The notes beneath the pieces were generated by a model, which did not search any database, had not been told where the DNA came from, and worked only from the letters and a program-made list of their open reading frames with translations. Below, piece after piece: positions 707 to 36,709 of a stretch of 54,757 bases of DNA (positions within the stretch are counted from its first letter, which is position 1; every line of letters starts with the position of its first letter). The stretch comes from Lachnospiraceae bacterium (lineage in GTDB: Bacteria > Bacillota > Clostridia > Lachnospirales > Lachnospiraceae): positions 1-54,757 of the forward strand of contig JAFRVX010000030.1 in assembly GCA_017438305.1 (NCBI GenBank), written 5' to 3'. The position numbers and the translations under genes are program-made.

Positions 707-2524
707 TCACCGGTTCCGGCAGACTCCGTTGCTGTCGAAAAGATAATTCACTCCATCTATGGGGAAACTTCCGTTACAATACATTCTTCCGATATGGTAT
801 ATGGGAATATCCACTTTCCACTTCTGAAACAGGTCATGAAAATCCTGTTCCTTTTCAGCCAGATAGTACCATTTTCCGTCGATCTCCAGCCAGCCGGTCT
901 GCATGACGCCGTCAGACGCAGAATAGTACCAGCCTATATCATAATTATTATGGTAAAAATTATGCGTCAGATTATACCACCCTGTTGTCATTTCCCCATT
1001 GTAGTAATTCAGCATATAATATTTACCGTTGATCTTCTGTTTTCCGTACTGCATGATTCCGGCTTCATTAAAATGGTACCATTTACCTTCGATTTTTCTC
1101 CAGCCGGTCGTCATGCTTCCGCCATCGCCGAAATAGTACCAGATGAATTCTTTGATATATTCCTTTTCTATCCTCCCGTCGTCCATATTATCATATTCTA
1201 TATTCCGGAATTTAACCCATCCGACAGACATTGTTCCATTAGCTTTCAGATAATAAGTTTTTCCGTTGATCTTCTGCCACCCGGTCTGCATGACGCCTAA
1301 AGAATTCAGGTAATACCATTTATCATTAACCGATATCCATCCGGTCTGCATGACGCCGCCGGCGGAGAAGTAATACCAGCTGCCGGAGATCTGTTTCCAG
1401 CCTACAGCCATGACGCCTGACAGATCCATATAATACCATCTGTCATTGATCTTTTCCCAGCCGGTCTGCATGGCGCCGCCATCATTGAAATAATACCATC
1501 TGCCGGAAATCTGTCTCCAACCCGTGACCATATAGCCCCTGGCGTTGAAATAGTACCATTTCCCCATGATCTTAAGCCATTGGTCCTTTGCATACCAGCC
1601 TTTATCATCTCCGTACCACCAGCCGGAATCGCTCTTTCGCCAGGAAGGAACCGAATAATTATAATGGATCGCCGCGTCTTCAAGGGCATAATTCTGATCC
1701 CCAACAGCGATCTGAGACCACTCACTCCGCGTACCGGTATAATAAACATCCTTCAGGGAATCGCATCCGGAAAACGTACCGATGTCGATGGTTTTAACGG
1801 ATTTGGTGATAACCACTTTTTCCAGAGAGTCACATTTGTAAAAAGCGTCATTCGGCAGGCGCTCTGAAGCTGCCAGCCAGTAAACTTCTTTCAAATATGC
1901 ACACTTGGAAAATAATCCGCCGCCCTTGTCATCTCCATGAAATGCGGTAACCGATTCAGGGATAATAATATATTTTACAGAAGTGCCTGAAAAAGTGCCG
2001 GAACCCAGAGAAGTCAAAGCTGCGGGAAGATTGATATTCCTTAGTCCGCTGCATCTTTCGAATGCAAAGCTGGCCAGATAAGTCAGCGATGCAGGCAGAG
2101 ATATTTCCTTTAATCCGTAACATCCCGCAAACGCAGAATCCTGCAGCTCTTCCAATTTCCCGGGCAGCTTTATGCTCTGCAGCGAATAACAATCGGCAAA
2201 GGCGGAACTGCCTATTGTCTTTACGCTGTCCGGAAGACTGACTGACTTGAGATTAAAAGCATTGCGAAATGCCTCTGCACTTACATTGGTAATGCCTTCA
2301 CTGATGATTACTTCCTCGATCTCTCCCTGCTGATACTCTCTCCAGGGCTGAGTATCATTGCTGTAGTACCTCATCTCCCCGGTCCCGGAGATCGTCAATA
2401 TTCCGTTTTCATAGGACCAGGACGCGTTTGCGCCGCATTTTCCCGAAGCGGCAGCATCAGCCGTCACCGACCTTATCCCTAATAAGAATAACACCGCCAT
2501 CACGGCGATCATTACTTTTTTCAT
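707..2524 (-). CDS. Secreted BspA-type LRR protein with wall-binding repeats
   Basis: Predicted surface protein of 605 residues. A longer frame opens at 2581, but ATG 2524 is preferred because it follows GAGAGGGCGG and starts a good signal peptide (MKKVMIAVMAVLFLLGIRS). Residues ~40-270 hold BspA/LRR_5-type leucine-rich repeats (for example LPDSVKTIGSSAFADCYSL, with repeating Ser-Ala-Phe and Leu-Pro). These are a protein- or host-contact fold in this family. Residues ~280-600 hold about a dozen choline/glucan-binding-type repeats (GKWYYFNARGYMVTGW and variants). The repeats probably hold the protein non-covalently on the wall; choline as the ligand is inferred from the lic genes at 17.5-21.7 kb. 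It lies 44 bp downstream of a broken paralogue and may use the promoter at 2890-2918. A terminator follows at 634-676. Confidence 0.85.
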   Translation of the reverse strand: MKKVMIAVMAVLFLLGIRSVTADAAASGKCGANASWSYENGILTISGTGEMRYYSNDTQPWREYQQGEIEEVIISEGITNVSAEAFRNAFNLKSVSLPDSVKTIGSSAFADCYSLQSIKLPGKLEELQDSAFAGCYGLKEISLPASLTYLASFAFERCSGLRNINLPAALTSLGSGTFSGTSVKYIIIPESVTAFHGDDKGGGLFSKCAYLKEVYWLAASERLPNDAFYKCDSLEKVVITKSVKTIDIGTFSGCDSLKDVYYTGTRSEWSQIAVGDQNYALEDAAIHYNYSVPSWRKSDSGWWYGDDKGWYAKDQWLKIMGKWYYFNARGYMVTGWRQISGRWYYFNDGGAMQTGWEKINDRWYYMDLSGVMAVGWKQISGSWYYFSAGGVMQTGWISVNDKWYYLNSLGVMQTGWQKINGKTYYLKANGTMSVGWVKFRNIEYDNMDDGRIEKEYIKEFIWYYFGDGGSMTTGWRKIEGKWYHFNEAGIMQYGKQKINGKYYMLNYYNGEMTTGWYNLTHNFYHNNYDIGWYYSASDGVMQTGWLEIDGKWYYLAEKEQDFHDLFQKWKVDIPIYHIGRMYCNGSFPIDGVNYLFDSNGVCRNR

Positions 2525-2568
2525 TTCCGCCCTCTCACGCAGCCGTTCAGAAACAACTGCCTTTTTCC

Positions 2569-2787
2569 TTATTGTACCCAATAGCCGTTGGCGTCAAAGG
2601 TATATCTTTTGCCATCAATGCTGTAATTACCATTGCTGTAGAAATAGCCGTCTGCTGAATAATAATAGTACTTTCCATCAATCTTATTCCAGCCTGTTGT
2701 TACTTCTGCCCTGGCTTTTACTGATGGCTACAGGATCATGACCATGATCAGCAGAGGAAGCAGAAAAATTATTTTTCTTTTGTTCAT
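2569..2787 (-). pseudogene. Amber-interrupted relic of a wall-binding-repeat protein
   Basis: From ATG 2787 (behind GGGAGGACC) the frame reads MNKRKIIFLLPLLIMVMIL, then TAG at codon 20, then 52 more sense codons to TAA. The continuation (PSVKARAEVTTGWNKIDGKYY) matches the intact neighbour at 3149-4492, which reads MNRRKWFLLLPLLIVVMILW followed by PSEKAKAEMQPGWNKIDGKYY. The amber therefore replaces a Trp codon (TGG to TAG) inside the signal peptide. The relic ends with IDGKRYTFDANGYWVQ, the usual C-terminal tail of these proteins, so the middle repeats are also missing. It keeps its promoter, leader and ribosome site. Most likely it is a deletion derivative that now serves only as leader for the LRR gene. 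A sequencing error at the TAG cannot be excluded. Confidence 0.75.
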
Positions 2788-2889
2788 AAGGTCCTCCCAT
2801 GTTGGCTTTTTCGGTAACCAGCCGGATGCTGCAAAAAACACCAGAACATTTTTTTGCCTGCCGCAGCTCCATTCAATGTTGCTGAAGAT

Positions 2890-2918
2890 ATGATATCAAC
2901 GAGAGATAAAATCGTCAA
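2890..2918 (-). promoter_or_regulatory. Promoter of the relic/LRR transcript
   Basis: TTGACG (2913-2918), 17 nt, TATCAT (2890-2895) on the minus strand. Boxes and spacing are identical to the promoter of the intact paralogue at 4607-4635. Both leaders carry AGCTGCGGCAGG (2857-2868 here, 4574-4585 there), and both have a CAAACTT-ACA motif upstream of the -35. Confidence 0.7.
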
Positions 2919-3010
2919 TGTTTTTGGCCTATATTGTATATTTGTGTCAAGTTTGAACAAATCCTCAGCAGGCGGAGGACTTATTCCTTCGGAAAGCCTT
3001 TGGCCCTCAG

Positions 3011-3148: not shown

Positions 3149-4492
3149 TCAAATGTACGGTTCTGAATGCCCTGTCCAGCTGCCGTCCATGTTAAACTCG
3201 TAGTATTTTTCCCCGATCTGGTACCACCCTTCACTGTACATGTAGCAGAACTCATCATCAAAGTAATACCATTTGTTATTGATCTTCTTCCAGCCGGATA
3301 TCAGGACGCCGTTTGCATCCGCATAATACCAGGTAACATATTTGGCATCGTTATAGGTATAGCTCTCTTTCGCCCAGCCTCCGGTCACCATGACCCCGCT
3401 GGCGTTCAAGCAGTACATTTTTCCGTCTTCACCAGGGGTAATTACGCGATTGGCCGCCATTTCAGGGTAAAGATAATACCACTTGCCATTATCCTTTACC
3501 CATCCCTCTTTCATGTTGCCGGAAGCATCGAAATAATAGTAATGGGCACCGACCTTCTGCCAGCCTTTGGTGAAGGTCCCGTCGGCTTTCTTATATTTTA
3601 CATTGCTGCCGGAACGCTGGAAGCCTGTCGCTGCATTCATGGGTTTCCAGATGCCGTTGGCGGCAAAGTACTCATATTTTCCGTCAATATAAGCCAATCT
3701 GTCTGATACCATCGAAGAATCGAGATAATACCAGTTCCCGTTGATCTTTTTCCAGCCCTCCTCAGGGGTTCCGTCCGATTTGGTATAATACCAGGTCTTT
3801 TTCCCGTCGATAGTATACGATGTGCTCTGCCAGCCGGCTCCTGCAAGGGCTCCGCCTTCCGTAAAGAAATACCATTCATCGTTGATACAATAGAGATCGC
3901 CGGCGTACATGTAATTGGTATCCGGGTCCATATAATACCATTTATTATTGATCTTCTGCCAGCCGGAAACCAGTGCTCCGGATGATGATGCATAATACCA
4001 GGTGACATCTGTTGCTGTGGAGCCGCCGCTGGTGGGATAGGTGGAAATTTGTTTGATCCATCCCGTTTTCATCGCGCCGTCGTCACCGAAAAAATATGTC
4101 TTATTGCCCTCATACCACCATCCGGTATGCATGATCCCTGTATAATCATAGAAATAATACCATTTATTGCTGATCTTTTTCCAACCGATATCTATGGCGC
4201 CTCCGGCAGCAGCATGATACCAGTATGTATAAACGGTCCCGTCCTGTTCATCGGTTATGGTTTCCTTTATCCATCCGGTCTGCATGACGCCGTTTTTATC
4301 AAAATAGTACCTGTGGCTTCCGATGTCATAAAAACCATCGCTGTAAACATCGCCGTATTCTGTACAATAATAATACTTTCCGTCGATCTTATTCCAGCCG
4401 GGCTGCATTTCCGCCTTTGCTTTTTCCGAGGGCCAAAGGATCATGACCACGATCAGCAGGGGAAGCAGCAAAAACCATTTTCTTCTGTTCAT
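3149..4492 (-). CDS. Secreted protein built only of wall-binding repeats
   Basis: Predicted surface protein of 447 residues. ATG 4492 is chosen over an upstream frame because it follows GGGAGGATTAT and opens a signal peptide (MNRRKWFLLLPLLIVVMILW, cleaved near KAKA-E). The rest, residues ~30-447, is about 15 choline/glucan-binding-type repeats (GWKKINNKWYYFD-type). Several are expanded by inserts such as EQDGTVYTYWYHAAAGGA. No catalytic or adhesive domain is visible, so the protein may itself be a wall-coating ligand or scaffold. It has its own promoter (4607-4635) and terminator (3011-3053), so it is probably monocistronic. It is the intact paralogue of the relic at 2569-2787. Confidence 0.85.
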   Translation of the reverse strand: MNRRKWFLLLPLLIVVMILWPSEKAKAEMQPGWNKIDGKYYYCTEYGDVYSDGFYDIGSHRYYFDKNGVMQTGWIKETITDEQDGTVYTYWYHAAAGGAIDIGWKKISNKWYYFYDYTGIMHTGWWYEGNKTYFFGDDGAMKTGWIKQISTYPTSGGSTATDVTWYYASSSGALVSGWQKINNKWYYMDPDTNYMYAGDLYCINDEWYFFTEGGALAGAGWQSTSYTIDGKKTWYYTKSDGTPEEGWKKINGNWYYLDSSMVSDRLAYIDGKYEYFAANGIWKPMNAATGFQRSGSNVKYKKADGTFTKGWQKVGAHYYYFDASGNMKEGWVKDNGKWYYLYPEMAANRVITPGEDGKMYCLNASGVMVTGGWAKESYTYNDAKYVTWYYADANGVLISGWKKINNKWYYFDDEFCYMYSEGWYQIGEKYYEFNMDGSWTGHSEPYI

Positions 4493-4606
4493 ATAATCCT
4501 CCCAGATCATTCTTTTTTCCGGCAAAAGGCCGGATACTGTATAAAAAAGGTTCTCCGAAGCTTTCTAATAATACCTGCCGCAGCTTCACTTTGTATTGCA
4601 AAAGTA

Positions 4607-4872: not shown

Positions 4873-4988
4873 TTCAGCCGGATCCGCGCTGTCACTTCAC
4901 CGTATAGCTATCGGTGTCGAAAGTGTACTTCTTTTCAGCAGGATCCGCGCTGTCACTTCACCCAATAGCCGTTGGCGTCGAAGGTGTA
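4873..4988 (-). repeat. Tandem duplication of a gene's 3' end, ~61 bp
   Basis: The unit containing GGATCCGCGCTGTCACTTCA and then a stretch encoding KKYTFD occurs at ~4937-4990 (the live gene end) and again at ~4876-4930. The outer copy still reads KKYTFDTDSYTVK followed by TGA but has drifted. It is a fossil of unequal crossing-over at the C-terminal module. Confidence 0.65.
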
Positions 4989-6737
4989 TTTCTTATCGTC
5001 GATGGTAAGGGTGACGTTCTTCGCATACCAGCCGGACGTATCCCCGAACCACCAGCCTTTGGCGTTCTTCGTCCAGGAAGCCTTGTACTTATAGGTCCAG
5101 GAGCCGTCGGCGTTCAGCCACCAGCCGCTGCACCATTCCTTGGCTGCCATGGCGCCAGAGGCCTTAAAGTAATAGGTCGTCCCGGCCAGGGTCTTCCAGC
5201 CCGTAACCATGGCGCCGCTGCTCTCAAAGTAGTACCACATGCCGGCGAGCTGCTTCCAGCCGGTCTGCATTGCGCCGCTGCTGCTCATGTAATACCAGCT
5301 GCCGTTGATCTTCTGCCAGCCGGTCCTCATGGCGCCGTCCGTTCCCAGGTAATACCACACAGAGCCGAATTTCTGCCAGCCGGTCTGCATATAGCCTCTG
5401 TTGTCAAAGTGGTACCACTTTCCCTTGATCTTCTCCCACTGGCTCACCGGGTAGGTCCCGTCCGCTCTCTGATACCACCAGCCGGTGGAATTATGCCGCC
5501 AGCCTGCCGTACCGTTGTTCGGAGCGTCGACGGTAAGCGTATAGTTCAGGTCGCTTCCGTGAGAATAACCACTGGTGATCCGGATGTAATAGGTGCCGGC
5601 GGGAAGGTCCACGGCAGGAAGCGTCACTTCAGCCTTATTACCCGGAATCGGACAGGAATCAAGACCATCGACCTGTATTATCTCTTCTACAGAGTTTAAC
5701 AGACAGATCCTCCAGTATTCGTAGTCGGTTGTCATAAGCGGATGAGCGAACCGTATCCTTACGGTGTCATTCTTTGCCAGGACTATTTTATAATAGTCCT
5801 CCTCCTCATGGGAGGTTCCAAAGATACCGCCTTTACAGGCCGCATTTGCCTTTATCGGCGTTGCGCTGGTACGGGTGCCGTTGGCTTCCTTCTCGTAGGC
5901 GGAAGATGCTGTGAAGCCTGCCTTCAGGTTATAGTTCACATCCGTATGAGGGGATTGATACGCTGCTACACGTATGTAATAGACCCCTGCCGGCAGCCCC
6001 ACTTCCGGGAGACTGTAACCGGTATCGCTCCCGGAAAACGAATAGGTCTGCTCTTCTCCTCCGGTAATATCCTGCCTCTGGGAATTATAAAGCCGGATAT
6101 TCCAGAAGAAATAATTCTGATTCAGCTCTTCATAGGTAAACTGTACCGTTAAGGCGCCGTCCTCAGGCAGAGTGATCTTGTACCAGTCTTCGTCGCTGTA
6201 ATCCGCAAAAGTACTGCCTTTGTAAACCGTGTCGAGCTCTATGGACGTGGCCCTTGCAGCTGAATCGTTATATTCCTTCTCGTAAAAGGAAGATGCGGTA
6301 AAATCTGCTTTCAGACTATAGGCCGAATCGCTGTGTCTGTACGATGCGGTTACCCGTATATAATAGGTTCCTGCGGGCAGTCCGGTCTCGGCAAGGCTGT
6401 ACCCGGTCCCTTCACCGCTGAACTTATAACACGTCTCTTCATCTCCGGCAACAGTAAGCCCATTGGAATCCATCAGATAGACATTCCAGAATCTGTAAGA
6501 ATCCTTCAGATCTTCATGGGTAAACTGTATGGTTAACGCGCCGTCCTGGGATAAAGTGACCTTGTACCAGTCCTCATCGTCTTCGGAAGATATGGCGCCG
6601 GTAACCGTCGTATTTAACGACAGGGCATTGGCGCTTTCCAGGGAGCCGTTGTCTTCTGTTTCACTCGCGGCAAAAACCGTCAGGCTGCTTATCGAAAACA
6701 ACAGAATAAACAGCGCCAGAAAATGTAATTTCTTCAT
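4953..6737 (-). CDS. Surface protein: three PPC-like domains plus wall-binding repeats
   Basis: Predicted secreted protein of 594 residues with a signal peptide (MKKLHFLALFILLFSISSLT, cleaved after VFAA). Three consecutive beta-sandwich modules of the bacterial pre-peptidase C-terminal (PPC) type lie at about residues 25-147, 148-275 and 276-405. Each has an EDNGS/EYNDS-like start, a DEDWYKVTL strand and a closing LPAGTYYIRV. Residues ~407-594 are wall-binding repeats ending in a GWWFGDTSGWYAKN-type tail. PPC modules usually accompany secreted enzymes or adhesins; no enzyme domain is present here, so adhesion or scaffolding is the likely role. It starts 78 bp after the next paralogue with no terminator between them, so the two are probably co-transcribed. 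Ribosome site: ATAGGAGG. Confidence 0.85.
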   Translation of the reverse strand: MKKLHFLALFILLFSISSLTVFAASETEDNGSLESANALSLNTTVTGAISSEDDEDWYKVTLSQDGALTIQFTHEDLKDSYRFWNVYLMDSNGLTVAGDEETCYKFSGEGTGYSLAETGLPAGTYYIRVTASYRHSDSAYSLKADFTASSFYEKEYNDSAARATSIELDTVYKGSTFADYSDEDWYKITLPEDGALTVQFTYEELNQNYFFWNIRLYNSQRQDITGGEEQTYSFSGSDTGYSLPEVGLPAGVYYIRVAAYQSPHTDVNYNLKAGFTASSAYEKEANGTRTSATPIKANAACKGGIFGTSHEEEDYYKIVLAKNDTVRIRFAHPLMTTDYEYWRICLLNSVEEIIQVDGLDSCPIPGNKAEVTLPAVDLPAGTYYIRITSGYSHGSDLNYTLTVDAPNNGTAGWRHNSTGWWYQRADGTYPVSQWEKIKGKWYHFDNRGYMQTGWQKFGSVWYYLGTDGAMRTGWQKINGSWYYMSSSGAMQTGWKQLAGMWYYFESSGAMVTGWKTLAGTTYYFKASGAMAAKEWCSGWWLNADGSWTYKYKASWTKNAKGWWFGDTSGWYAKNVTLTIDDKKYTFDANGYWVK

Positions 6738-6815: not shown

Positions 6816-8969
6816 TTACTTCATATATCCCGCGGCGTCAAAGGTATAACTCTTGCCGTCGATCCTGACGGTGGCGCTCTTCGCGTACCAGCCGGAATCG
6901 TCTCCGTACCACCAGCCCTTATTGTTGTGCACCCAGCGGGCCCTGTACTTGTACGTCCAGGAACCGTCCTGGTTCAGGTAATAGCCGTCCCACCATTCTC
7001 TGGCGGCCATGGCGCCGTCGGGTTTGAAGAAATAGGTGACATTGCCGATCTTTTTCCAGCCGGTCTGCATCACGCCGCCGCTGCTCATATAATACCAGTT
7101 GGAGCCGAGCTTCAGCCAGCCGGTCTGCATCACGCCCTTGTCGTTCATGTAATACCAGCTGCCGTTGACCTTCTGCCAGCCGGTCTTCATGGCGCCGTCC
7201 GTTCCCAGATAATACCAGGAAGTGCCGAATTTCTGCCAGCCGGTCTGCATATAGCCTTTACTGTCAAAGTGGTACCACTTTCCGCTGATCTTCTCCCACT
7301 GGCTGACCGGGTAGGTCCCGTCCGCTCTCTGGTACCACCAGCCGCTGGAATTGTGCTTCCAGCCTGCCGCGACGCCGTTGTTCGGCGCATTCACCGTGAG
7401 GGTGTAGGTGTGATTGCTGTGATAAAATCCGCAGGTGATCCGTACGTAATAGGTGCCGGCCGAAAGACCTACGGCAGGAAGCGTCACATCGGACACATTT
7501 CCGTCGATATAATAGACAGAACCATCAATGTTTACTGTATTCCCCTCGGCATCCAGCAGGTAGATCTGCCAGTAGTTATTGCTGTCGCTGATGATCGGAT
7601 GCGCAAACCGGATCTTTACCGTATCGTTCTTTGTCAGGACGATCTTATAATAGTCCTCATCATAGGAATCGGCATAAGTACTGCCCTTATAGGCCACATT
7701 GGCCTTTATCGGGGTAGCGCTGTCCCGGGAACCGTTATATTCCTTCTCATAAACGGTGGACGCAGTAAAGCCCGCTTTCAGGCTGTACGTCGAATCATTA
7801 TGATAGTCTGCCGTCACGCGTATATAATACGTTCCTGCCGGCAGTCCCACCTCCGGAAGACTGTACCCGGTTCCGTCACCGTCAAATTGATACCACTTCT
7901 CGTACTCTCCGGTAATGTTCTTCCCCTCGGAATTATACAGATACACTCTCCAGTAGGACTGAGAGTCGGTCAGATCTTTGTGGGTGAACTGTACGGTCAG
8001 TGCGCCGGCCTGGGATAACGTGACCTTATACCAGTCTTCATCGCCGTAATCCACATAAATACTGCCCTTATAGACCGTATTGAGATTGATGGGCGTAGCG
8101 CTGGCCCGGGATCCGTTATATTCCTTTTCATAAGTGGAAGAAGCGGTAAAGCCGGCTTTCACGCTGTATGTCGAATCACTGTGACCGTACAGCATCGTCA
8201 CGCGTATATAGTAGGTTCCTGCCGGCAGTCCCACCTCCGGGAGGCTGTATCCGGTTCCGTCACCGGCGAAGTCAAACCTTTTTTCGGAATCTCCGGTAAT
8301 ATTCTGCCCCTCGGAATTATACAGATACAGGCCCCAGTAGTACTGAGAGTCGGTCAGATCTTTGTGGGAGAACGTTACGGTCAGTACGCCGGCCTGGGAT
8401 AACGTGAACTTATACCAGTCTTCGTCAGCGTAATCTGCATAAATACTGCCTTTATAGAAAGTGTTGAGATTCATGGACGTAGCGCTGGCCCGGGATCCGT
8501 TATATTCCTTCTCATATACGGAAGACGCCGTAAAACTTACCCGAACGGTATAACTCGAGCTTTCGGTATAGTATCCTGATATCACACGCACATAATACGT
8601 TCCTGCCGGCAGCCCGATCTCAGGAAGGCTGTACCCGGTTCCATTACCGTCAAACTCATAACATTTATCAGTATCTCCGGTAATGTTTTGGCCCTCGGAA
8701 TTATACAGATAAAGCCTCCAGTGGAGATTGGATGATGTCAGATCCTGGTGTCCGAACTGTACGGAAATGGCGCCGGCCTGGGATAAGGTAAACTTATACC
8801 AGTCTTCATCGTTATAGGAAGATATATTGCCGGTAACCGTCGTATTCAACGATATGGCATTGGCACTTGCCCTGGAACCGTTGTCTTCCGCTTCGCCGGC
8901 GGCAAATACCGTCAGGCTGCCCAACGCAAACAACAGTACAAGCAGCGCAAGGAAATGCAGTTTCTTCAT
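6816..8969 (-). CDS. Surface protein: four PPC-like domains plus wall-binding repeats
   Basis: Predicted secreted protein of 717 residues, a close paralogue of the genes on both sides. It has a signal peptide (MKKLHFLALLVLLFALGS). Four PPC-like modules of ~120 residues follow, each opening with YEKEYNGSRASAT-like sequence and closing with LPEVGLPAGTYY. From about residue 528 come wall-binding repeats (YMQTGWQKFGTSWYYLGTDG) and a tail with GWWYGDDSGWYAK. The ribosome site AAAGGAGAC precedes ATG 8969. The modules are near-identical at the DNA level over ~360-bp units, which should permit gain or loss of modules by recombination; the left neighbour has three. No clear promoter is seen directly upstream, so read-through from the gene at 9175-11322 is possible. 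Confidence 0.85.
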   Translation of the reverse strand: MKKLHFLALLVLLFALGSLTVFAAGEAEDNGSRASANAISLNTTVTGNISSYNDEDWYKFTLSQAGAISVQFGHQDLTSSNLHWRLYLYNSEGQNITGDTDKCYEFDGNGTGYSLPEIGLPAGTYYVRVISGYYTESSSYTVRVSFTASSVYEKEYNGSRASATSMNLNTFYKGSIYADYADEDWYKFTLSQAGVLTVTFSHKDLTDSQYYWGLYLYNSEGQNITGDSEKRFDFAGDGTGYSLPEVGLPAGTYYIRVTMLYGHSDSTYSVKAGFTASSTYEKEYNGSRASATPINLNTVYKGSIYVDYGDEDWYKVTLSQAGALTVQFTHKDLTDSQSYWRVYLYNSEGKNITGEYEKWYQFDGDGTGYSLPEVGLPAGTYYIRVTADYHNDSTYSLKAGFTASTVYEKEYNGSRDSATPIKANVAYKGSTYADSYDEDYYKIVLTKNDTVKIRFAHPIISDSNNYWQIYLLDAEGNTVNIDGSVYYIDGNVSDVTLPAVGLSAGTYYVRITCGFYHSNHTYTLTVNAPNNGVAAGWKHNSSGWWYQRADGTYPVSQWEKISGKWYHFDSKGYMQTGWQKFGTSWYYLGTDGAMKTGWQKVNGSWYYMNDKGVMQTGWLKLGSNWYYMSSGGVMQTGWKKIGNVTYFFKPDGAMAAREWWDGYYLNQDGSWTYKYRARWVHNNKGWWYGDDSGWYAKSATVRIDGKSYTFDAAGYMK

Positions 8970-11322: not shown

Positions 11323-11353
11323 TCTGTATGACCTCCTTTGAATGTATATATTA

Positions 11354-11382
11354 TTTATAGCCCACGTCATTTTTTCTGTCAA
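11354..11382 (-). promoter_or_regulatory. Strong promoter of the PPC surface-protein set
   Basis: A consensus -35 TTGACA (11377-11382), a 17-nt spacer and TATAAA (11354-11359) lie on the minus strand. The leader is only ~25 nt, then AGGAGG and ATG 11322. The partly palindromic GTGCACAGTGCAC (11421-11433) lies about 40 bp upstream of the -35. Confidence 0.8.
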
Positions 11383-17206: not shown

Positions 17207-17241
17207 TTTACAATCCTCCATGTTTTCATTTCCGCTTCTGT

Positions 17242-17283
17242 GTTTCATCTGAAACACCTGTGGGTTTATGTTTCATCAGAAAC
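17242..17283. promoter_or_regulatory. Paired palindromes in the giant gene's leader
   Basis: GTTTCATCTGAAAC (17242-17255, perfect 6-bp arms) and GTTTCATCAGAAAC (17270-17283, one mismatch) lie 28 bp apart, between the promoter and the ribosome site. They could be operators for a dimeric regulator, or RNA hairpins in the leader. Confidence 0.55.
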
Positions 17284-21675: not shown

Positions 21676-21710
21676 TCGCAAGCCTCCTTTTCATGAACTA
21701 TACGGCATAT

Positions 21711-23370: not shown

Positions 23371-23408
23371 TAAAACGGTCTGAATTTAAAAAACCAACGG
23401 TTCAGACC
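23371..23408 (-). terminator. Possible terminator overlapping the glycerophosphotransferase stop
   Basis: GGTCTGAA (23401-23408 on the minus strand) pairs with TTCAGACC (23377-23384). The loop contains a T-run and a short GTTTTAAATT follows. A third copy of the GGTCTGAA motif lies at 23361-23368, so this is partly a 16-bp tandem repeat. The loop is long; confidence is limited. Confidence 0.4.
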
Positions 23409-29336: not shown

Positions 29337-31067
29337 TTATCCGGCGAAGTTTTTATGCCAGTCAAGGATCAGGCTGACGATGGCCCGCATATCATCCTCC
29401 GTATACCGCTGGTCACAGATCAGCGACAGTTCATTCTCCCGAAGCCCCGCTTCCGCGCCCATGACCTCCGGCCTGTGGACCGGGCAGTACACGGCATGCT
29501 CGATCAGGTATTTTCTCAGGGCGTCTCTGGCGCCGTTCTCCAGAAATACCGGCAGGAATAAGGGCGTATCCTGTTCGGGATCGATGGCGGGGATCTTCAT
29601 CACATCCCCTTCGAGGGCCTTCAGGCCTTCCGCCAGCACCCGGGCGTTGTTCCGCCGCTGTCTGATCACGGCTTCGATATCTGTTTCCTTCAGGATCTCA
29701 AGGGAAGTATCGTCGATCTTCAGCATTTTATCCACGTGGATCAGGTCGTTGTCAAACTTTGCCTGGGCCAGGAGGAAATGCTCCTTGTCCGAGATCCTGC
29801 CGGTCAGATAGTCATATTTTTCCTTCATGCCGGCGATCTTCTCCGCCACTGCATGGTTGCTGTCGAGGTCCGGTTTTTCCGCCAGGCTTCCTTTCCGTTT
29901 GCCTGCCCAGCCGCCCGTGGGAACGGGGAACCATTTCCGGAGGCTCGCCACCAGGTAGTCGCTTTCCGCCGAGGCCGGTTCTCCGGTCAGCAGGGAATGG
30001 GTAATATCTTCAATGACCACGGCTTTGCGGCTCTTGAGTTTTGAAACGGCTTCATGGGCGGAGGCCGTGTTCAGGCCGAAATAGCTCATGATCAGCACCA
30101 CGTCGTTTTCACCGGCTTCCGGAAGCTCATAGGTAAAGGTTCCGTTTTTAAAATCCACCCGGTAGAAGCTGATGTCAAGGCCTCTGTCGATAAAGGACTG
30201 GAGCATGGACACGCAGCAGTAGGACGGCGCAAAGACCTTCCTGATCTTTTTCCCGGCCAGAATATCCTTCAGAACGATATCGATGGCGTTCCGTCCGGAA
30301 AAGGCAAAACAGGCATCGGCCGCTTCAGGAAGCCAGCTGATGTCCCGGGGAGCTCTTTTCTCCTGGTCGTCCAGCCAGAAGTAACTGCCTATTTCAGAAT
30401 AACGCATGCCCGGCATTTTCGTGCCTCCGTTTCCTTCTTCTTTCAAAATGGTGTACGGCCCGTAGTCCCTGACCTTTGTGCTTCCCCGCACAGAGACGTC
30501 CGCCCGCTTCACCACCTTAAGCGCCGTATCCAGGATCACTTTGGCATCCAGCTTAAACGAGAGTTCATCAATATATTTGATGTCCAGATCGAAGCGGTCG
30601 TCCCAGGGCAGGTTATTTCTGCCGTTGGCCTGGGCGAGTCCGGTAAGGCCCGGACGCACCTCGTGCCGCCTTCTGTATCTGGCCGGATAATGAGGCAGAT
30701 AATAAATGGACAGCGGACGGGGTCCGACGATGCTCATGTCGCCCTTTATGATATTCACAAGCTCCAGCAGCTCGTCAAGACTGCTGGCCCGTAAAAACTT
30801 ACCGAATTTTGTCAGCCTCTGGGCGTCGGGCAGAAGTCTTCCGTCCTCTCCGGTCTCATTGGTCATGCTCCGGAATTTGTAAAGATAGAAGATCTTCTCA
30901 TTTAAACCCGGTCTTGCCTGTTTGAAGACCACCGGGCTTCCCAGCTTGACCCGCACCAGAAGCCCCGTAACCAGGAGGACCGGACTTAAGACGACAAAAG
31001 CCGGTACGGACAGCGTCAGATCCAGCGCCCGTTTGATATATTTTCTGTATATTCCTTTTCTTTTCAT
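29337..31067 (-). CDS. Initiating phosphoglycosyl transferase fused to a PLP aminotransferase-like domain
   Basis: Fusion of 576 residues. Residues 1-195 are a PglC/WcaJ-type monotopic sugar-1-phosphate transferase. They include a re-entrant hydrophobic segment (16-38), YKFRSM (63-68), the catalytic Asp-Glu in ASSLDELLELVNIIKGDMS (D98, E99), VGPRPL and RPGLTGLAQANGRN. This part would load the first sugar phosphate onto undecaprenyl phosphate. Residues 219-576 are a DegT-like PLP fold with APSYCC (280-285), EDITHS (D354) and SLRKWFPVPTGG, where K378 is the expected PLP lysine. The domain border carries GGAGG and an in-frame ATG (30416) at ribosome-site spacing, so the second domain may also be made separately. 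Coupling of 4-amino-sugar formation to chain initiation is a reasonable inference. Confidence 0.82.
   Translation of the reverse strand: MKRKGIYRKYIKRALDLTLSVPAFVVLSPVLLVTGLLVRVKLGSPVVFKQARPGLNEKIFYLYKFRSMTNETGEDGRLLPDAQRLTKFGKFLRASSLDELLELVNIIKGDMSIVGPRPLSIYYLPHYPARYRRRHEVRPGLTGLAQANGRNNLPWDDRFDLDIKYIDELSFKLDAKVILDTALKVVKRADVSVRGSTKVRDYGPYTILKEEGNGGTKMPGMRYSEIGSYFWLDDQEKRAPRDISWLPEAADACFAFSGRNAIDIVLKDILAGKKIRKVFAPSYCCVSMLQSFIDRGLDISFYRVDFKNGTFTYELPEAGENDVVLIMSYFGLNTASAHEAVSKLKSRKAVVIEDITHSLLTGEPASAESDYLVASLRKWFPVPTGGWAGKRKGSLAEKPDLDSNHAVAEKIAGMKEKYDYLTGRISDKEHFLLAQAKFDNDLIHVDKMLKIDDTSLEILKETDIEAVIRQRRNNARVLAEGLKALEGDVMKIPAIDPEQDTPLFLPVFLENGARDALRKYLIEHAVYCPVHRPEVMGAEAGLRENELSLICDQRYTEDDMRAIVSLILDWHKNFAG
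30414..30428 (-). promoter_or_regulatory. Internal ribosome site at the fusion border
   Basis: GGAGG (30424-30428) lies 7 nt before an in-frame ATG (30414-30416, residue 218), exactly between the two domains of the fused gene. Confidence 0.55.
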
Positions 31068-31162: not shown

Positions 31163-32263
31163 TCAGATCTTGTTCAGCGCCTCATCGAATATGGCTTCGC
31201 TCTCCAGCACGATGGGTTCCACATCCACATCCCGCAGGAAGATGTACGGTTTGTCATAATGATGATACTGGTCCCTCACCACGTTCCGGACATCCCCGTC
31301 CTCGTGGATCCTGATCGTGTCTTCGACAAGGTCGAATCCTACCCGGGCCATGACGCCGGTGTAGGCCATATGTCTGATGTTGACCTCGGTGACCTTGAGC
31401 TGTCCGTTTTTATCTTCTTTCAGATCAAAGGACAAAATGCCGTGGGCCGGCACGCCGAGCTTTTTCTCAAGGTATCTGATGCAGTCATCACAGAATCTGT
31501 TGATCGCGTCTTCGTTGAGGAAACGCGCGAAATGCGTGTTTCCGGTGACATGGGACGGCGCGGCATTCGCCATAACATATTCCGCGCATTCCAGCGCAGC
31601 GCCTTTCACATATTCACCGTTGTAATAAAGCATCTGGTTAGCCAGATGCCGTCCTGTCAGAAATTCACAGACTGTAAACTCGGGAATATTGCTGTTGATA
31701 AACAGCCAGGATCGATAGGAACTGATATCGTCAAGCCTCAGGCTTCCCAGTCCGCCGGTGCCTTCCGTTGCCCTGATCCAGCAGGGGAAACCGATCTCTT
31801 TTTCCACATCTTCGAATCTGGGGTTTTCCTGGGTGACCTTGATCGTTTTCGGAATAAATTCCGTTCCTTCCAGGAGTTCCGCCATGATGCTTTTATCTCT
31901 CAGGCTCTCGGACAGCAGTCTGCATCCCATGAATACGGGGCAGGGGAATTCTCCGTGATCTTCATAATACTGTCCCCATTCCACGATCTCGCTTTCCGGC
32001 TGAACAAACGCAAAATCCACCTGGTGCTTTTCGATCACTTTCCGGATGAACGGAAAATACTCGGGCTCGCTGCACCGGGGAGCAATATAATATTCATCGA
32101 CAAGCTTCTGTCCGTTTCCGGCCATCATGAAAAAGCCCATGGCTTTCTTGTCGACATCACAGCCGATGATCTTAAAATCAGGGTGATTTGCCTTAACGAC
32201 CTTTGCAATAGAACGAGGAGTAAGACCGCCAATTCCCGTAATCAATACCGTCTTTGCACTCAT
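31163..32263 (-). CDS. Second ATP-grasp enzyme (CarB-like)
   Basis: Cytosolic protein of 366 residues. It has an N-terminal Rossmann-like lobe (KTVLITGIGGLTPRSIAKV) and an ATP-grasp core (EKEIGFPCWIRATEGTGGLGS, about residues 155-176). The metal-binding carboxylates are probably in LSFDLKEDKNGQLKVTEVN (~291-310), where an E-x-N closes the active site. It is not a close relative of the other ATP-grasp gene here. Its job in the cluster is unknown; amide-bond formation on a sugar or on a side group is the family expectation. ATG 32263 is chosen over GTG 32269, which crowds the GAGAGG site. It begins 17 bp after the DegT aminotransferase, suggesting a shared pathway. Confidence 0.75.
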   Translation of the reverse strand: MSAKTVLITGIGGLTPRSIAKVVKANHPDFKIIGCDVDKKAMGFFMMAGNGQKLVDEYYIAPRCSEPEYFPFIRKVIEKHQVDFAFVQPESEIVEWGQYYEDHGEFPCPVFMGCRLLSESLRDKSIMAELLEGTEFIPKTIKVTQENPRFEDVEKEIGFPCWIRATEGTGGLGSLRLDDISSYRSWLFINSNIPEFTVCEFLTGRHLANQMLYYNGEYVKGAALECAEYVMANAAPSHVTGNTHFARFLNEDAINRFCDDCIRYLEKKLGVPAHGILSFDLKEDKNGQLKVTEVNIRHMAYTGVMARVGFDLVEDTIRIHEDGDVRNVVRDQYHHYDKPYIFLRDVDVEPIVLESEAIFDEALNKI

Positions 32264-32279
32264 CTGCACCTGTCCTCTC

Positions 32280-33590
32280 TTATCTGAAGCATCTGTGAAT
32301 GATCTCTATGATCCTGTCCTGCTGTTCCGGAGTCATTTTGTTGTCCGAAGGCAGGCAAAGTCCGCGCCGGAAGATGTCCGCGCCAACGTCCGCTCCCGTG
32401 CCCTCGATATAGGCGTTGCTCTTTCCTCTGCCGTTTCCTTCAGCCGTAATAAAGGCATGCGTTCTGTAAATGGGCTGCATATGCATGGGTTTCCAGATGG
32501 GACGGCCCTCCGTTCCGAAAGCGCTTATGGCATCCAGGATCTCCTGGGGACTGCTCTTTCCGGGTTCGCTGACGTACAGATAATCCTGTTCGCCGCGGAC
32601 CATAGGCGCCATGGCGTCTTCATTGATGATCATGCAGGAAAGCCAGAAATTCGGAATGCTGTTCTCCCTGTCCCAGGGATTCATCTTTACCGGCAGATCC
32701 TTAAGGCCCTCCTCGTACCGCTCCCATATGGCCCGTTTCTGGTTTATATGTTCTTCCAGATAAGGCAGCTGTCCCCGGACGATACCGGCAATGATATTGC
32801 TCATGCGGTAGTTGTAGCCGATCTCTTCGTGCTGATACCAGGGCGCCGCTTCACGGCTCTGGGTCGACCATTTTCTGACTTTGTTGGCGTCCTCCAGGCT
32901 GTCGGTAAGGAACATTCCGCCGGCCGAACCGGTTATGATCTTATTCCCGTTGAAGGAGATGCAGTTGTAGCCGCCGAGGGTTCCGGTCTCCACCCACCTG
33001 CCGTTCAGCCGGTATTTCGCGCCGAGGCTCTCCGCAGCATCTTCAATGATCAGCGCATCGTGTTCATCACAGATGGCTTTGATCTCTTCCATTTTTCCGG
33101 GCGTTCCGTAAAGGTGCGCCACCACGACGAGCCTGACTTCGGGATAAAGTTCAAAGGCCTTCCTTAACGCTTCCGGACTCATGTTCCAGGTATCATACTC
33201 TGTATCGATGAAAACCGCTTCACCGTCTTCATAAGCAACAGGGTTGATCGATGCGTCAAAGGTGGTATCGCTGCAGAACACACGGTGACCAGCCAGTGTC
33301 CCGGCGTCCGGACGCGCCTGGCCGTACAGTTTTTCCGCTGCCAGTCTGGTGGCGAGATGAAGCGCTGCCGTGCCGCACGAAAGCGCTACGGCATATTTAA
33401 CGCCGATATAGTCCGCGACCTCTTTTTCAATGGCATCGATATTTTCGCCGACAGTGGAGACCCAGTTTGTCTGGATCGCTTCATCCACCCATTTCTGTTC
33501 GTCTCCGTGCATTGTCGGAGAAGAGAGCCAGATCTTTGTTTTGAATGGTTCTATTCCGGCAAAACGCGGATCATTTTTAAAGTCTTTCAT
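32280..33590 (-). CDS. DegT/DnrJ/EryC1-family sugar aminotransferase
   Basis: PLP enzyme of 436 residues. The frame extends to 33707, but ATG 33590 behind GGTGG fits the family start (residues 10-25 lead into WLSSPTMHGDEQKWVDEA). Key residues are SCGTAALHLA (71-80), the cofactor-stacking EDAAESLG (D184) and the Schiff-base lysine in SFNGNKIITGSAGG (K217). It would convert a 4-keto-6-deoxy nucleotide sugar, the product of the dehydratase at 34.7-36.7 kb, to the 4-amino sugar, as in AATGal or bacillosamine synthesis. It is a second PLP enzyme besides the one fused to the initiating transferase. The wzz-like gene lies 213 bp upstream across a long hairpin (33709-33743). Confidence 0.85.
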   Translation of the reverse strand: MKDFKNDPRFAGIEPFKTKIWLSSPTMHGDEQKWVDEAIQTNWVSTVGENIDAIEKEVADYIGVKYAVALSCGTAALHLATRLAAEKLYGQARPDAGTLAGHRVFCSDTTFDASINPVAYEDGEAVFIDTEYDTWNMSPEALRKAFELYPEVRLVVVAHLYGTPGKMEEIKAICDEHDALIIEDAAESLGAKYRLNGRWVETGTLGGYNCISFNGNKIITGSAGGMFLTDSLEDANKVRKWSTQSREAAPWYQHEEIGYNYRMSNIIAGIVRGQLPYLEEHINQKRAIWERYEEGLKDLPVKMNPWDRENSIPNFWLSCMIINEDAMAPMVRGEQDYLYVSEPGKSSPQEILDAISAFGTEGRPIWKPMHMQPIYRTHAFITAEGNGRGKSNAYIEGTGADVGADIFRRGLCLPSDNKMTPEQQDRIIEIIHRCFR

Positions 33591-33708
33591 TATCGTTCCA
33601 CCTTTGTTCTCTATTGGGATCTTTCCGGCCGATCTGACAGCAGAAAGAAGATGTGTCACACTATATACAGGCTGCAGCGGTTTCCGACAGCCGCAAACAA
33701 GACTCAAT

Positions 33709-33803: not shown

Positions 33804-34742
33804 TCAGCGGATGACGACCGCGCCGATCACAGGCCTGTCAAGATTTTCGGCAATTTCCATATTTCTTCTGAGCAGGGCTTTTCCGGTCTCCTTGAGGTGG
33901 ATGACAAGAACGATCCCCTCGCAGGCTTTTGCCTTGAACTGCGCTTCAGCATCCGTCGCCAGATTCCCGGACTCGATAAACCGGGCGTCCTGCTCGACAA
34001 TATATCTCATGACCGCAGCCGAAGCATGGTCTTTAAGATCTCCGGATACCACGCCGCGGCTGATATCCATGGTCTTCAGCACGGCTTTCAGGTAATTCCG
34101 GTCATTGGCCGGGATCCTGCCTTTGTTTTCCCATTTCCGTATGGCTTTATCGATCCCCTTTTTCGCTTTCGCGCCATCTGCGTCCAGCGCCGCAAGGATC
34201 TTCAGGCCGGGCACATGGTCTATCTCCTCTTCGCTCTTCACGTCTTTGCTGAAAATATAATATAAAAGAAGAAAGGCCAGACCGGCAAAGCCCAGTCCCA
34301 GCGCACCGAAAACGGGCAGCTTTTTATTGAAGGAATTCTTAATGGTGTAATCCGTATAGTTGAGCTTATAATACATGACCTCGTCGTCTTTCAGGGTCTT
34401 TTCAAGTTTGACCAGCGCATTATAAGCTGTGACCCGCTCCTCTGAATTGCCGGATTCCGCCGCTTTCTTATAGGCATCCTGGAGTTCTTTATACTGGATA
34501 ACGTTTTCAAGGTTGATGGATTCTCTGGTAGTCTGGGACTGAATGATCTGTTCCAGCTCTGCTTTCTTAGCAGCCGTCAGATCTCTGCCGGACCGGATCC
34601 AGGCAAACAGCCCGCCCGCAAGAGCCCCGGCAAGGACCAGGATCAGGAAGACCGGCCACTTTCTTAAAAGATAAAAGAACAGATCTCTGATGTTTACAAC
34701 CACTTCGTCCCGGTAGTCCTCACTTTTCTGCACGGGAATCAT
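33804..34742 (-). CDS. Wzz-like chain-length/BY-kinase-type membrane protein
   Basis: Protein of 312 residues with two membrane segments (about 32-50 and 143-163) around an extracytoplasmic helical region, typical of Wzz/CapA-type polysaccharide co-polymerases. The C-terminal ~130 residues after the second segment are cytosolic. They resemble the shape of a BY-kinase domain, but I see no Walker A motif and no terminal Tyr cluster, so it is probably catalytically dead or only a regulator. Its start overlaps the stop of the dehydratase gene by 4 bp. It is expected to set polymer length together with the EpsG-like polymerase. Confidence 0.72.
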   Translation of the reverse strand: MIPVQKSEDYRDEVVVNIRDLFFYLLRKWPVFLILVLAGALAGGLFAWIRSGRDLTAAKKAELEQIIQSQTTRESINLENVIQYKELQDAYKKAAESGNSEERVTAYNALVKLEKTLKDDEVMYYKLNYTDYTIKNSFNKKLPVFGALGLGFAGLAFLLLYYIFSKDVKSEEEIDHVPGLKILAALDADGAKAKKGIDKAIRKWENKGRIPANDRNYLKAVLKTMDISRGVVSGDLKDHASAAVMRYIVEQDARFIESGNLATDAEAQFKAKACEGIVLVIHLKETGKALLRRNMEIAENLDRPVIGAVVIR

Positions 34743-36709
34743 ACCTCCTCTCTTCCTGATTTAATGATTTCCATGGTGAACTCTCTGGTCCCTTTTTCAT
34801 CGGTAAAGGCCAGCTCCATGAGCTTCTGCAGATCCTTCAGGAATTTATCCCTGTTAAACTCCACAGGCTTTCCGATGAAGATCAGTTTATTCCTGGTGGT
34901 CGTCAGGCCTTCCTCAGCCATAAGCTTTTCTTCGTAAAGCTTTTCGCCGGGCCGGAGCCCCGTATAAACCACCTTGATATCCTCATCCGGCGTGAAGCCG
35001 GAAAGCTTGATCAGGTTTCTGGCAAGGGTATCGATCTTGACCGGTTCGCCCATGTCAAAGACGAAGATCTCGCCGCCCTGCGCGTAAACCGACGCCTGAA
35101 GCACCAGGGAAACGGCTTCCGGGATCGTCATGAAATAGCGGATGATATCCGGATGGGTCACCGTTACCGGACCGCCTTCGGCGATCTGTTTTTTAAACAG
35201 CGGGATGACCGAACCGTTGGAGCCCAGGACATTGCCGAAGCGTACGGCGACGAATTCGGTGCAGGCGTCCCGCGGAAGCCCCAGGATGGTGCGTCCCTCA
35301 TCGTCATGGGAATAGATCAGCGGGATCTCGGACGCCCTGTGTTCTTTCACAAACTGGTTGAAGGTCTGGATGATCATCTCGCAGACCCGCTTCGAAGCGC
35401 CCATGATGTTGGTGGGGTTCACGGCTTTATCGGTGGAGATCAGCACAAACTTCGGCACATGGTACTTGATGGCCATATAAGCCGTTTTATAAGTGCCGAT
35501 GGCGTTATTCTTAATGGCCTCCTGGGGGCTGTCCTCCATGAGCGGCACATGCTTATGAGCCGCAGCATGATAAACGATATCCGGCCGGTAAAGGCTGAAG
35601 ACATCCTCCAGTCTTCTGGAATCCCGGACAGAGCCGATCAGCACTTTAAGATCCAGCTCAGGATACTTCTTGATAAGCTCCTGCTGGATCTGGTAGGCAT
35701 TATTCTCGTAAACATCAAAGATAATGAGGGTCTTGGGACTGTGGGAAGCGACCTGGCGGGAAAGCTCCGAACCGATGGAACCGCCGCCGCCGGTGATCAG
35801 GACCACCTTATCCCTGAGATGATCCAGGATCTCATCCAGTTCTACGGAGATCACGTCGCGCCCCAGAAGGTCCTCCACTTCAACGTCGCGGAAGTGGCCC
35901 AGGCGAACGTCTTCTCCGTTTAAAAGATTCATGGTTCCCGGGAGAGTTTTGATCTCGCAGCCGGTCTCCTTGCAGATATTGGTGATGTCGCGTCTGGCCT
36001 CCACAGAGGCGGACGGCACCGCAATATAGATCTTATCGATATGATATCGTTTTACGGCCGCCATAATATCGTCCCGGCCCCCTACGACCCGGACGTCATC
36101 TATATAACGGCCCCATTTATTCATGTTGTCATCAATAAAGCAGACCACCTTAAGGCTGTTCTCAATGGTGGATGTCTGGATATCCTTAAGAAGACTTCTG
36201 CCCGTTTCTCCCGCTCCGATGATCATGACCCGGTCAACGGTCTCCATATTCGAAGGCTTCCGGGATCTTCCCAGAAGCAGCAGCCGGTAGGAGAACCGGA
36301 TGCCGGCGGTCAGAAGGAACTGCAGAAGCGGTCCGCCGAACAGATAAACGGCAGGCATCTTTCCGAAAAGGACCGTTATCAGGACGCCGTGCAGCACCCC
36401 GGTAATGATGGTGGCCAGGAGCGCCTTGTACAGTTCATGTATGCCTGCATAGCGCCAGATGGAACGATAGAGCCTGCAGAGGATGAATACCACCAGAGCG
36501 ATGACGGTGTATATCGGCAGGAACTTTACAAACCGCAGCAGATAATCACGAGGAATAGCCGTATACCTGAAATCATACCTGAGCCAGAGCGCTGTAAAGT
36601 AGGAAAGGTTTACGACTACTGCATCATATACGGCCAATAAAAACCCGACAGATTTCCAGTGCCGTCTCAAGAAACCAACGGAATTATTCTGATCAGCCTT
36701 TTTTTCCAT
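34739..36709 (-). CDS. Membrane-bound nucleotide-sugar 4,6-dehydratase (CapD/PglF type)
   Basis: Protein of 656 residues. Four N-terminal membrane helices (~15-145) are followed by a CoA-binding-like Rossmann lobe (IIGAGETG, 164-171), then the catalytic SDR domain with ITGGGGSIGSELSRQ (305-319). The catalytic set is STDKAVNPTNIMGASK (D427, K428, M436, K440), where the usual Tyr is Met, as in UDP-GlcNAc C6-dehydratases. It should yield UDP-2-acetamido-4-keto-2,6-dideoxy-hexose, the precursor for the DegT aminotransferase at 32.3 kb. In pneumococcus the same two steps give UDP-AATGal, the first teichoic-acid sugar. It is the first gene of the cluster, with a promoter at 36748-36776 and ribosome site GAGAGGAAACT. 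Confidence 0.88.
   Translation of the reverse strand: MEKKADQNNSVGFLRRHWKSVGFLLAVYDAVVVNLSYFTALWLRYDFRYTAIPRDYLLRFVKFLPIYTVIALVVFILCRLYRSIWRYAGIHELYKALLATIITGVLHGVLITVLFGKMPAVYLFGGPLLQFLLTAGIRFSYRLLLLGRSRKPSNMETVDRVMIIGAGETGRSLLKDIQTSTIENSLKVVCFIDDNMNKWGRYIDDVRVVGGRDDIMAAVKRYHIDKIYIAVPSASVEARRDITNICKETGCEIKTLPGTMNLLNGEDVRLGHFRDVEVEDLLGRDVISVELDEILDHLRDKVVLITGGGGSIGSELSRQVASHSPKTLIIFDVYENNAYQIQQELIKKYPELDLKVLIGSVRDSRRLEDVFSLYRPDIVYHAAAHKHVPLMEDSPQEAIKNNAIGTYKTAYMAIKYHVPKFVLISTDKAVNPTNIMGASKRVCEMIIQTFNQFVKEHRASEIPLIYSHDDEGRTILGLPRDACTEFVAVRFGNVLGSNGSVIPLFKKQIAEGGPVTVTHPDIIRYFMTIPEAVSLVLQASVYAQGGEIFVFDMGEPVKIDTLARNLIKLSGFTPDEDIKVVYTGLRPGEKLYEEKLMAEEGLTTTRNKLIFIGKPVEFNRDKFLKDLQKLMELAFTDEKGTREFTMEIIKSGREEV

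Follow-up and report, generated by a model that had tools for sequence, protein, structure and literature searches.

The stretch analyzed here (hereafter the window) is the 54,757-nucleotide contig JAFRVX010000030.1 of a Lachnospiraceae bacterium, contig C147 of a 2.5-Mb draft genome (GCA_017438305.1; 191 contigs, 81% complete). Positions 707-36709 hold an island of three blocks: a series of repeat-protein genes, an operon for a BCCT transporter, LicC2 and LicCA, and a Wzx/Wzy-type polymer cluster (21757-36709). Open reading frame (ORF) coordinates confirm that all genes described in this span lie on the minus strand. A preliminary description, made from the letters of the sequence, had placed wall-binding-repeat genes beside a choline-type operon and had that operon abut a flippase-ended glycopolymer cluster. 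ORF positions and Pfam matches confirm the first adjacency, and a Wzx gene at 21757-23217, directly beyond LicCA, confirms the second. The operon is compact, with gaps of 26 bases between BCCT and LicC2, 4 bases between LicC2 and LicCA, and 75 bases between LicCA and Wzx. The arrangement is real, and it recurs in other genomes (below, genomes, contigs and loci carry handles in G, C and L). The first two blocks contain the following features.

707..2581, minus strand: BspA-type leucine-rich repeats plus choline-binding repeats, signal-peptide-like start by eye (PF13306, PF19127, PF01473)
2584..2817 (approximate), minus strand: relic, copying the beginning of the 3149-4525 gene in truncated form and interrupted by one in-frame stop (tblastn, 62% over 79 amino acids, E 1e-26)
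3149..4525, minus strand: almost purely choline-binding repeats, signal-peptide-like start by eye (PF19127/PF01473)
4953..6737, minus strand: PPC domain plus choline-binding repeats (PF04151, PF19127, PF01473)
6816..8969, minus strand: paralogue with four PPC domains plus choline-binding repeats (Pfam; alignment of the repeat region with PDB chains)
9175..11382, minus strand: paralogue with four PPC domains plus choline-binding repeats (Pfam)
11612..17257, minus strand: 1881-residue protein with an acidic low-complexity N-terminal part and many degenerate repeats (PF19127, E 3e-40)
17542..19122, minus strand: BCCT transporter, probable choline uptake (PF02028, E 3e-120; DddT, CaiT, BetP and choline transporter chains)
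19149..19886, minus strand: LicC2, probable CTP:phosphocholine cytidylyltransferase (1JYK, E 1e-25; LicC site residues)
19891..21681, minus strand: LicCA, a fusion of winged helix-turn-helix (HTH), LicC-like and choline kinase domains (HTH_24, NTP_transf_3, Choline_kinase; 4R77, 1JYK)

Genes for the probable uptake and activation of choline

By sequence, the best solved relatives of LicCA are the pneumococcal choline kinase 4R77 (E 3e-30) and pneumococcal LicC 1JYK (E 8e-29), the latter also being the best solved relative of LicC2. The BCCT transporter stands in the operon in place of LicB. A LicCA with fused LicC and LicA, serving phosphatidylcholine, is reportedly present in Treponema denticola, although our literature search did not turn it up; we know of no N-terminal HTH on that protein. 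The choline pocket of LicA is given, in the part of the source available, as eight residues: T29, D176, V178, Y197, Glu213, W251, W254 and Y268 (PMC4364537). In the alignment with 4R77, T29, D176, Y197, W251, W254 and Y268 correspond to LicCA T324, D471, Y497, W552, W555 and Y569, which are kept in 80-81 of 81 aligned LicCA homologues, and V178 corresponds to V473, kept in 71 of 81. The kinase of the window thus matches seven of the eight pocket residues.

Four residues, which we take to be D107, W136, E216 and D218, mark the site of LicC. All four are present in LicC2, as D110 (conserved in 78/78 homologues), W140 (77/78), E220 (78/78) and D222 (76/78). The LicC-like domain of LicCA retains D172 in 81 of 81 and E277 in 77 of 81 sequences, with N in 71 and D in 8 of 81 at the place of D218; in the window's LicCA this domain has lost two of the four residues, having no TxEW tryptophan and an N at the 218 place. 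A second LicCA class (G315, G327, G260, G280, G126, G320, G030, G033), without a recognized neighboring LicC2, keeps both the TxEW tryptophan and an acidic residue. This pattern looks like a division of labor between the LicC-like domain and LicC2. That the N form marks a takeover by LicC2 is a step we do not take, as class I loci L100, L103, L104 and L123 speak against it: they carry the N form with BCCT close behind LicCA and no recognized LicC-like gene. Elsewhere in the same genome an HTH-LicC-like gene stands alone, lacking a LicA domain (L230, 3632-4654, contig C3).

A scan of named genomes returned at least 558 LicCA relatives. In the best 80 loci, for which flanks of at most 10 kb were available and many contigs were shorter, a separate LicC-like gene accompanies LicCA in 67, BCCT in 65, Wzx in 24 and repeat proteins in 18. 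Among the matches listed, the hosts include, by title, Lachnospiraceae, Oscillospiraceae, Erysipelotrichaceae, Faecalibacterium prausnitzii, Streptococcus porci, Coriobacteriales and Treponema. In Streptococcus porci (L088, 10004-14100) a LicCA-LicC-BCCT module resembling that of gut Clostridia sits among polymer genes. Within the window's own genus LicCA is patchy, with a close copy in 2 of 14 other genomes examined (G010, 70%, and G009, 68%, kinase half), and a genome of another family (G046) encodes a LicCA with 66% identity over the kinase half. Together, this patchiness and the close copy outside the family suggest horizontal transfer.

Choline-binding repeats and their link to LicCA

PF19127 and PF01473, tandem repeats of about 20 residues, score far above cut-off in all six intact repeat ORFs, and all six proteins have signal-peptide-like starts as judged by eye. 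The preliminary description had counted five intact genes and one relic; the relic is borne out by a tblastn search of 2582-3149, ending where the next gene begins, and the intact genes number six. The island's set is not complete for the genome, which encodes further repeat proteins on four other contigs. On contig C104 (L023, 6949-17164) four choline-binding-repeat proteins form another cluster, and the 20-kb stretch showed no recognizable lic genes.

The window's repeat proteins other than the 1881-residue one show the two-tryptophan cage pattern (GW...WYY). In the first repeat unit the second cage tryptophan is present at 4 of 4 positions in each of the three PPC proteins, at 5 of 7 in the 707-2581 protein and at 6 of 11 in the 3149-4525 protein; in the second unit the counts are 2 of 4 in each PPC protein, 5 of 7 and 6 of 10, respectively.

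Co-occurrence was assessed in 294 genomes of the order, including that of the window, with LicCA called at E ≤ 1e-80 and a repeat match at E ≤ 1e-8. LicCA was found in 21, a repeat match in 58 and both in 11. A repeat match is therefore present in 11/21 LicCA-positive genomes compared with 47/273 others (P 5e-4), and four or more matches in 9/21 compared with 15/273 (P 5e-6). Six genomes counted as LicCA-negative were later found to carry a fragmented or lower-scoring LicCA; moving them gives 17/27 versus 41/267 (P 2e-7), a figure that leans upward since only repeat-positive genomes were re-checked. G036 (LicCA E 1e-71) was not moved in this corrected count.

Co-location was scored in a set of 21 genomes having both LicCA and a repeat match, with repeat counts and gaps entered by hand. 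In 9 of these genomes LicCA has a repeat match no more than 10 kb away, where at most 1.9 were expected (P 1.7e-5) on a background that treats every repeat match as a separate place and is an upper bound for the listed matches. Within 3 kb, a limit chosen after seeing the data, the count is 7 of 21 with 0.7 expected (P 1.8e-6). Without G004, G036 and G126 the counts become 8/18 at 10 kb (P 8.6e-5) and 6/18 at 3 kb (P 2e-5). The test left out the window's genome, G010 (repeat protein on the LicCA contig seen only with a custom hidden Markov model, HMM), G093 (LicCA found later), LicCA-positive genomes in which no Pfam repeat match reached the cut-off (including G046, G009, G058, G003, G076, G277 and G176), and G208, G263 and G313 of the genus of G126, all three of which would be hits by coordinates. 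G288, G057, G309 and G324, with repeat positions listed incompletely or not at all, were scored as misses, as was G320, despite a repeat protein 0.3 kb away that was later seen with the custom HMM. LicCA stands between repeat-protein genes in G315, G327, G260, G126 and G030, and in G319 a single strand carries LicCA, LicC2, BCCT and then three repeat-protein ORFs in succession, with the BCCT and first repeat ORFs apparently abutting. In relatives, the nearness of lic and repeat-protein blocks exceeds chance.

In the comparison of related genomes that the preliminary description had suggested, LicCA and repeat proteins lie within 10 kb of each other more often than expected. A repeat protein and Wzx occur together in 7 of the 80 LicCA loci (L103, L111, L122, L125, L137, L138, L141). 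L111 follows the window's order, with PF04464, Wzx, LicCA, LicC2, BCCT and a 1868-residue repeat protein; two extra genes separate Wzx from LicCA there.

The identity of the second cage residue also follows LicCA. It is W at 560/975 positions in 14 LicCA-positive genomes, the window's included, versus 33/439 in 14 LicCA-negative genomes (no match at E ≤ 1e-10 or 1e-15), totals that include every scored position. The per-genome fractions, 0.31-0.85 against 0-0.43 (Mann-Whitney P 5.7e-6), drop proteins with fewer than four scored positions, by which LicCA-negative G097, G213 and G284 fell out. These comparisons concern genomes and regions picked from listed matches rather than at random, nearly all of one family and uncorrected for relatedness, with two positions scored per domain hit and overlapping hits. 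The cage HMM was trained mostly on LicCA-positive repeats, which should raise, not lower, W in the LicCA-negative group, and a looser regular expression agrees (W in 280/484 versus 7/173). The highest LicCA-negative values are those of G305 (9/22) and G080 (3/7); G274 was kept as LicCA-negative, its sole match (6e-12) being to the nucleotidyltransferase part. In LicCA-negative genomes the position is R, K or T in 249/439 cases, and the repeat proteins of these genomes probably recognize another ligand. Repeat loci of this kind are L179-L186, L188, L191-L194, L196, L197, L199, L201-L204 and L207-L209, with L187 standing apart. Given both the co-location of LicCA with repeats and the link of the cage tryptophan to LicCA, ligand synthesis and ligand binding look coupled.

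The polymer cluster and the candidate transferase

The third block consists of the following genes.

21757..23217, minus strand: Wzx-type flippase (PF01943)
23402..24610, minus strand: CDP-alcohol phosphotransferase, TagF/TarF type (PF04464, E 8e-45)
24795..25928, minus strand: EpsG/Wzy-like polymerase (PF14897)
26010..27077, minus strand: family 2 glycosyltransferase (PF00535)
27121..28017, minus strand: NAD-dependent epimerase/dehydratase (PF01370)
28007..29314, minus strand: ATP-grasp protein (Pfam)
29337..31067, minus strand: PglC-like initiating sugar-1-phosphate transferase with an extra C-terminal domain (PF02397; diacetylbacillosaminyl-1-phosphate transferase chain 8e37, E 7e-63)
31163..32269, minus strand: second ATP-grasp-like protein (weak Pfam match; NCBIfam PRK12767 group below cut-off)
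32280..33707, minus strand: nucleotide-sugar aminotransferase, LegC/PglE-like (PF01041; 1o61, E 1e-61)
33804..34742, minus strand: membrane protein, perhaps Wzz-like by eye (no Pfam match; hydrophobic stretches near the N-terminus and in mid-protein)
34739..36709, minus strand: FlaA1/PglF-type UDP-GlcNAc 4,6-dehydratase (PF02719; WlaL chain 5bju, E 4e-82)

WlaL is presumably the same protein as PglF, and the structures nearest to the aminotransferase, 1o61 and 4ztc, are ones that we take to be PglE-like. With PglF-, PglE- and PglC-like enzymes, flippase and polymerase all present, the block has the composition of a Wzx/Wzy cluster started on a 4-amino sugar. Enzymes of the PglF/PglE/PglC type make a 4-amino-4,6-dideoxy sugar. 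Such a sugar, AATGal, is also part of the pneumococcal teichoic acid unit as described in the available excerpt of PMC12017771, a resemblance rather than proof that the polymer predicted here is a teichoic acid. Ribitol phosphate (TarI/TarJ) and GalNAc-phosphocholine within the repeat would mark a teichoic acid of the pneumococcal kind. No polymer-attachment gene was seen among the annotated genes of the cluster, and no search was made elsewhere. The Wzx flippase gave no match when compared with solved structures. The C-terminal part of the 29337-31067 protein (~360 residues, no Pfam match) appears aminotransferase-like by eye, and ATP-grasp-type genes flank this gene on both sides.

Known PF04464 enzymes use CDP-glycerol or CDP-ribitol. 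TagD (TIGR01518), the enzyme of the CDP-glycerol route, has no match in the window's own genome, of which the assembly covers only 81%. On contig C77, away from the window, a second LicA-like kinase lies directly beside a PF04464-type gene (L231, 6605-8769). The sole LicD match of the assembly is a 307-residue ORF on contig C74, between a helicase and FeoB, with 24-30% identity over 244-296 residues to fully aligning LicD-type genes of other loci. Near LicCA, LicD occurs in 14 of the 80 loci, PF04464 in 12 and both in none; mutual exclusion of the two is not significant (Fisher P 0.11). The PF04464 enzyme of the cluster is a possible candidate for the phosphocholine transferase.

Interpretation, rival explanations and known systems

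The explanation that we consider fairly probable is that the island is a ligand-plus-receptor cassette, in which choline is activated, the adjacent glycan bears the phosphocholine and the repeat proteins grip this tag. The sequences themselves show which enzyme families are present, that most of their known site residues are kept, that the module recurs and its genes cluster, and that the cage tryptophan goes with LicCA; from these we infer that choline is the real substrate and propose a carrier, a transferase and a joint function. BCCT would import choline, the kinase domain of LicCA would phosphorylate it, and LicC2, alone or together with the LicC-like domain of LicCA, would convert phosphocholine to CDP-choline. 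The PF04464 enzyme of the cluster, or a LicD encoded elsewhere, may then place phosphocholine on a Wzx/Wzy-type glycan started on the amino sugar from the PglF/PglE/PglC-like enzymes. Once the glycan is flipped out, the six repeat proteins would hold its phosphocholine via paired tryptophans, as pneumococcal choline-binding proteins do. The preliminary description had attributed a joint function to the three blocks; the coupling of activation to binding proteins finds support in relatives, whereas the adjacent polymer as carrier remains a proposal.

Several observations weigh against the cassette. Ten of the 21 LicCA-positive sample genomes have no repeat match at E ≤ 1e-8 and 62 of the 80 LicCA loci show no repeat protein within the stretch covered; the lic module thus often works with no repeat protein nearby. 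LicCA and repeats are 46 kb apart in G034 and on different contigs in G325, G299 and G027. The 1881-residue protein, with 28 repeat matches by the custom HMM, has the second cage tryptophan at only 10/28 first-unit and 4/28 second-unit positions and departs from the two-tryptophan pattern; over the window's repeat proteins together, the count is only 54/115. In G324, with separate LicA- and LicC-like genes, the cage tryptophan appears at only 9/48 positions. The window contains no LicD, relatives of the BCCT transporter also carry betaine, carnitine or dimethylsulfoniopropionate (DMSP), and LicA Glu213, a residue directed at the quaternary amine, is replaced by Y513 in LicCA and by Tyr in 79 of 81 homologues.

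Choline decoration could be real and yet be carried by another polymer, such as a teichoic acid made elsewhere and decorated by the distant LicD; the adjacent cluster would then encode an unrelated capsule or exopolysaccharide, a neighbor by genome history. We take this possibility seriously, while thinking it somewhat doubtful. It would fit the position of the only LicD match, on another contig beside FeoB, and the recognition of Wzx in just 24 of 80 LicCA loci; moreover, where LicCA sits between repeat genes in G315, G327, G260 and G126, the custom HMM found no flippase in the stretch covered. The adjacent glycan is instead favored by Wzx, which shares the strand of LicCA and lies 75 bases upstream of it, by L111, where PF04464, Wzx, LicCA, LicC2 and BCCT, with a long repeat protein after them, keep the window's relative order, and by a sugar-1-phosphate-transferase-type gene ~4-5 kb from LicCA in G260 and G126.

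That the repeat proteins bind glycan, like the repeat domains of glucosyltransferases and clostridial proteins, with an incidental lic neighborhood, appears quite improbable. The repeat family is shared, and in the PDB the 6816-8969 repeat region aligns with choline-binding proteins, toxin repeats and glucosyltransferases alike. Toxin chains reach the highest total scores, which are summed over several stretches, and a Toxin A fragment (2qj6) scores 76 bits; the best single toxin stretch has 39 bits in the two alignments inspected. Choline modules, by contrast, cover most of the region with a single continuous alignment (CbpF 2vyu residues 1-129, 109 bits; autolysin 1gvm, 94 bits). The degenerate repeats of the 1881-residue protein would suit a glycan ligand; the above-chance co-location of LicCA and repeats, and a cage tryptophan that is common in LicCA-positive and rare in LicCA-negative genomes, would not. 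We give similarly little credence to activation of another amino-alcohol, such as ethanolamine. The LicA- and LicC-like families are broad, and both the replacement of Glu213 by Tyr and the altered LicC-like domain of the window's LicCA, with N at the 218 place and no TxEW tryptophan, could point that way. Against it, 80-81 of 81 sequences preserve the aromatic residues of the LicA pocket, and 77 of 78 preserve the LicC2 tryptophan; judged from the alignment, the LicCA pocket has retained its aromatic box and lost its rim charge.

A broader proposal, which we regard as rather unlikely to hold in all its parts, would make LicCA islands portable ligand-plus-receptor modules of gut Firmicutes. 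Activation and binders would co-evolve, the cage tryptophan persisting with lic and fading without it; PF04464 rather than LicD would transfer phosphocholine in islands like this one, and the HTH-LicC-like part, having diverged beside LicC2, would act as a regulator sensing CTP or CDP-choline.

In the pneumococcus the repeat-protein genes are scattered from the lic pathway, an arrangement that differs from the island, where they adjoin it. The lic loci, phosphocholine teichoic acid and choline-binding proteins of Streptococcus pneumoniae are described in the available parts of PMC4364537, PMC12017771 and PMC4929436. By these accounts the island has in common with it LicA- and LicC-type enzymes, GWxK..WYY repeats, a flippase and an amino-dideoxy sugar (AATGal in the pneumococcal unit, predicted here); it differs in its LicA fused to an HTH and a LicC-like domain, its BCCT transporter and a cluster without LicD. 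Much as in the Proteus mirabilis O18 O-antigen cluster, where lic genes and wzx lie inside a Wzx/Wzy cluster, ligand and predicted carrier are together; the O18 case is a Gram-negative O antigen with licABC and licD, and the available text mentions no choline-binding proteins (PMC8027243). The Clostridioides difficile S-layer/AP locus likewise places wall-polymer genes directly beside genes of binding proteins but, in the excerpt available, with CWB2 repeats and PSII in place of choline-binding repeats and phosphocholine (PMC4973711). Gemella and Clostridium saccharoperbutylacetonicum, the latter with 66 annotated choline-binding proteins, are Firmicutes with phosphocholine genes or choline-containing walls together with choline-binding proteins, although the available portions of the sources report no gene co-location (PMC7136413, PMC3593318). 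Ligand and carrier in one cluster, polymer and binders side by side, and phosphocholine with choline-binding proteins are thus known already. In the open-licence literature searched we found no paper on ligand synthesis, carrier polymer and binding proteins together, none on a LicCA-LicC2-BCCT module beside repeat proteins and none on the cage-tryptophan link.

Many gut Firmicutes carry annotated choline-binding repeats with no ligand tested so far (a match in 58 of the 294 sample genomes). The cage tryptophan and the lic module together offer a sequence rule for which of these repeats likely bind phosphocholine and which bind something else. This link also suggests that various commensals among the Lachnospiraceae, Oscillospiraceae and Erysipelotrichaceae may have phosphocholine surfaces; such surfaces on pneumococci bind C-reactive protein and the platelet-activating factor (PAF) receptor, according to the part of PMC4364537 available. 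Outside the island, the window encodes at 38727-42778 a 985-residue protein without a Pfam match. Its gene lies beside one for a metallophosphoesterase, an arrangement that we take to be like that of SbcC/SbcD.

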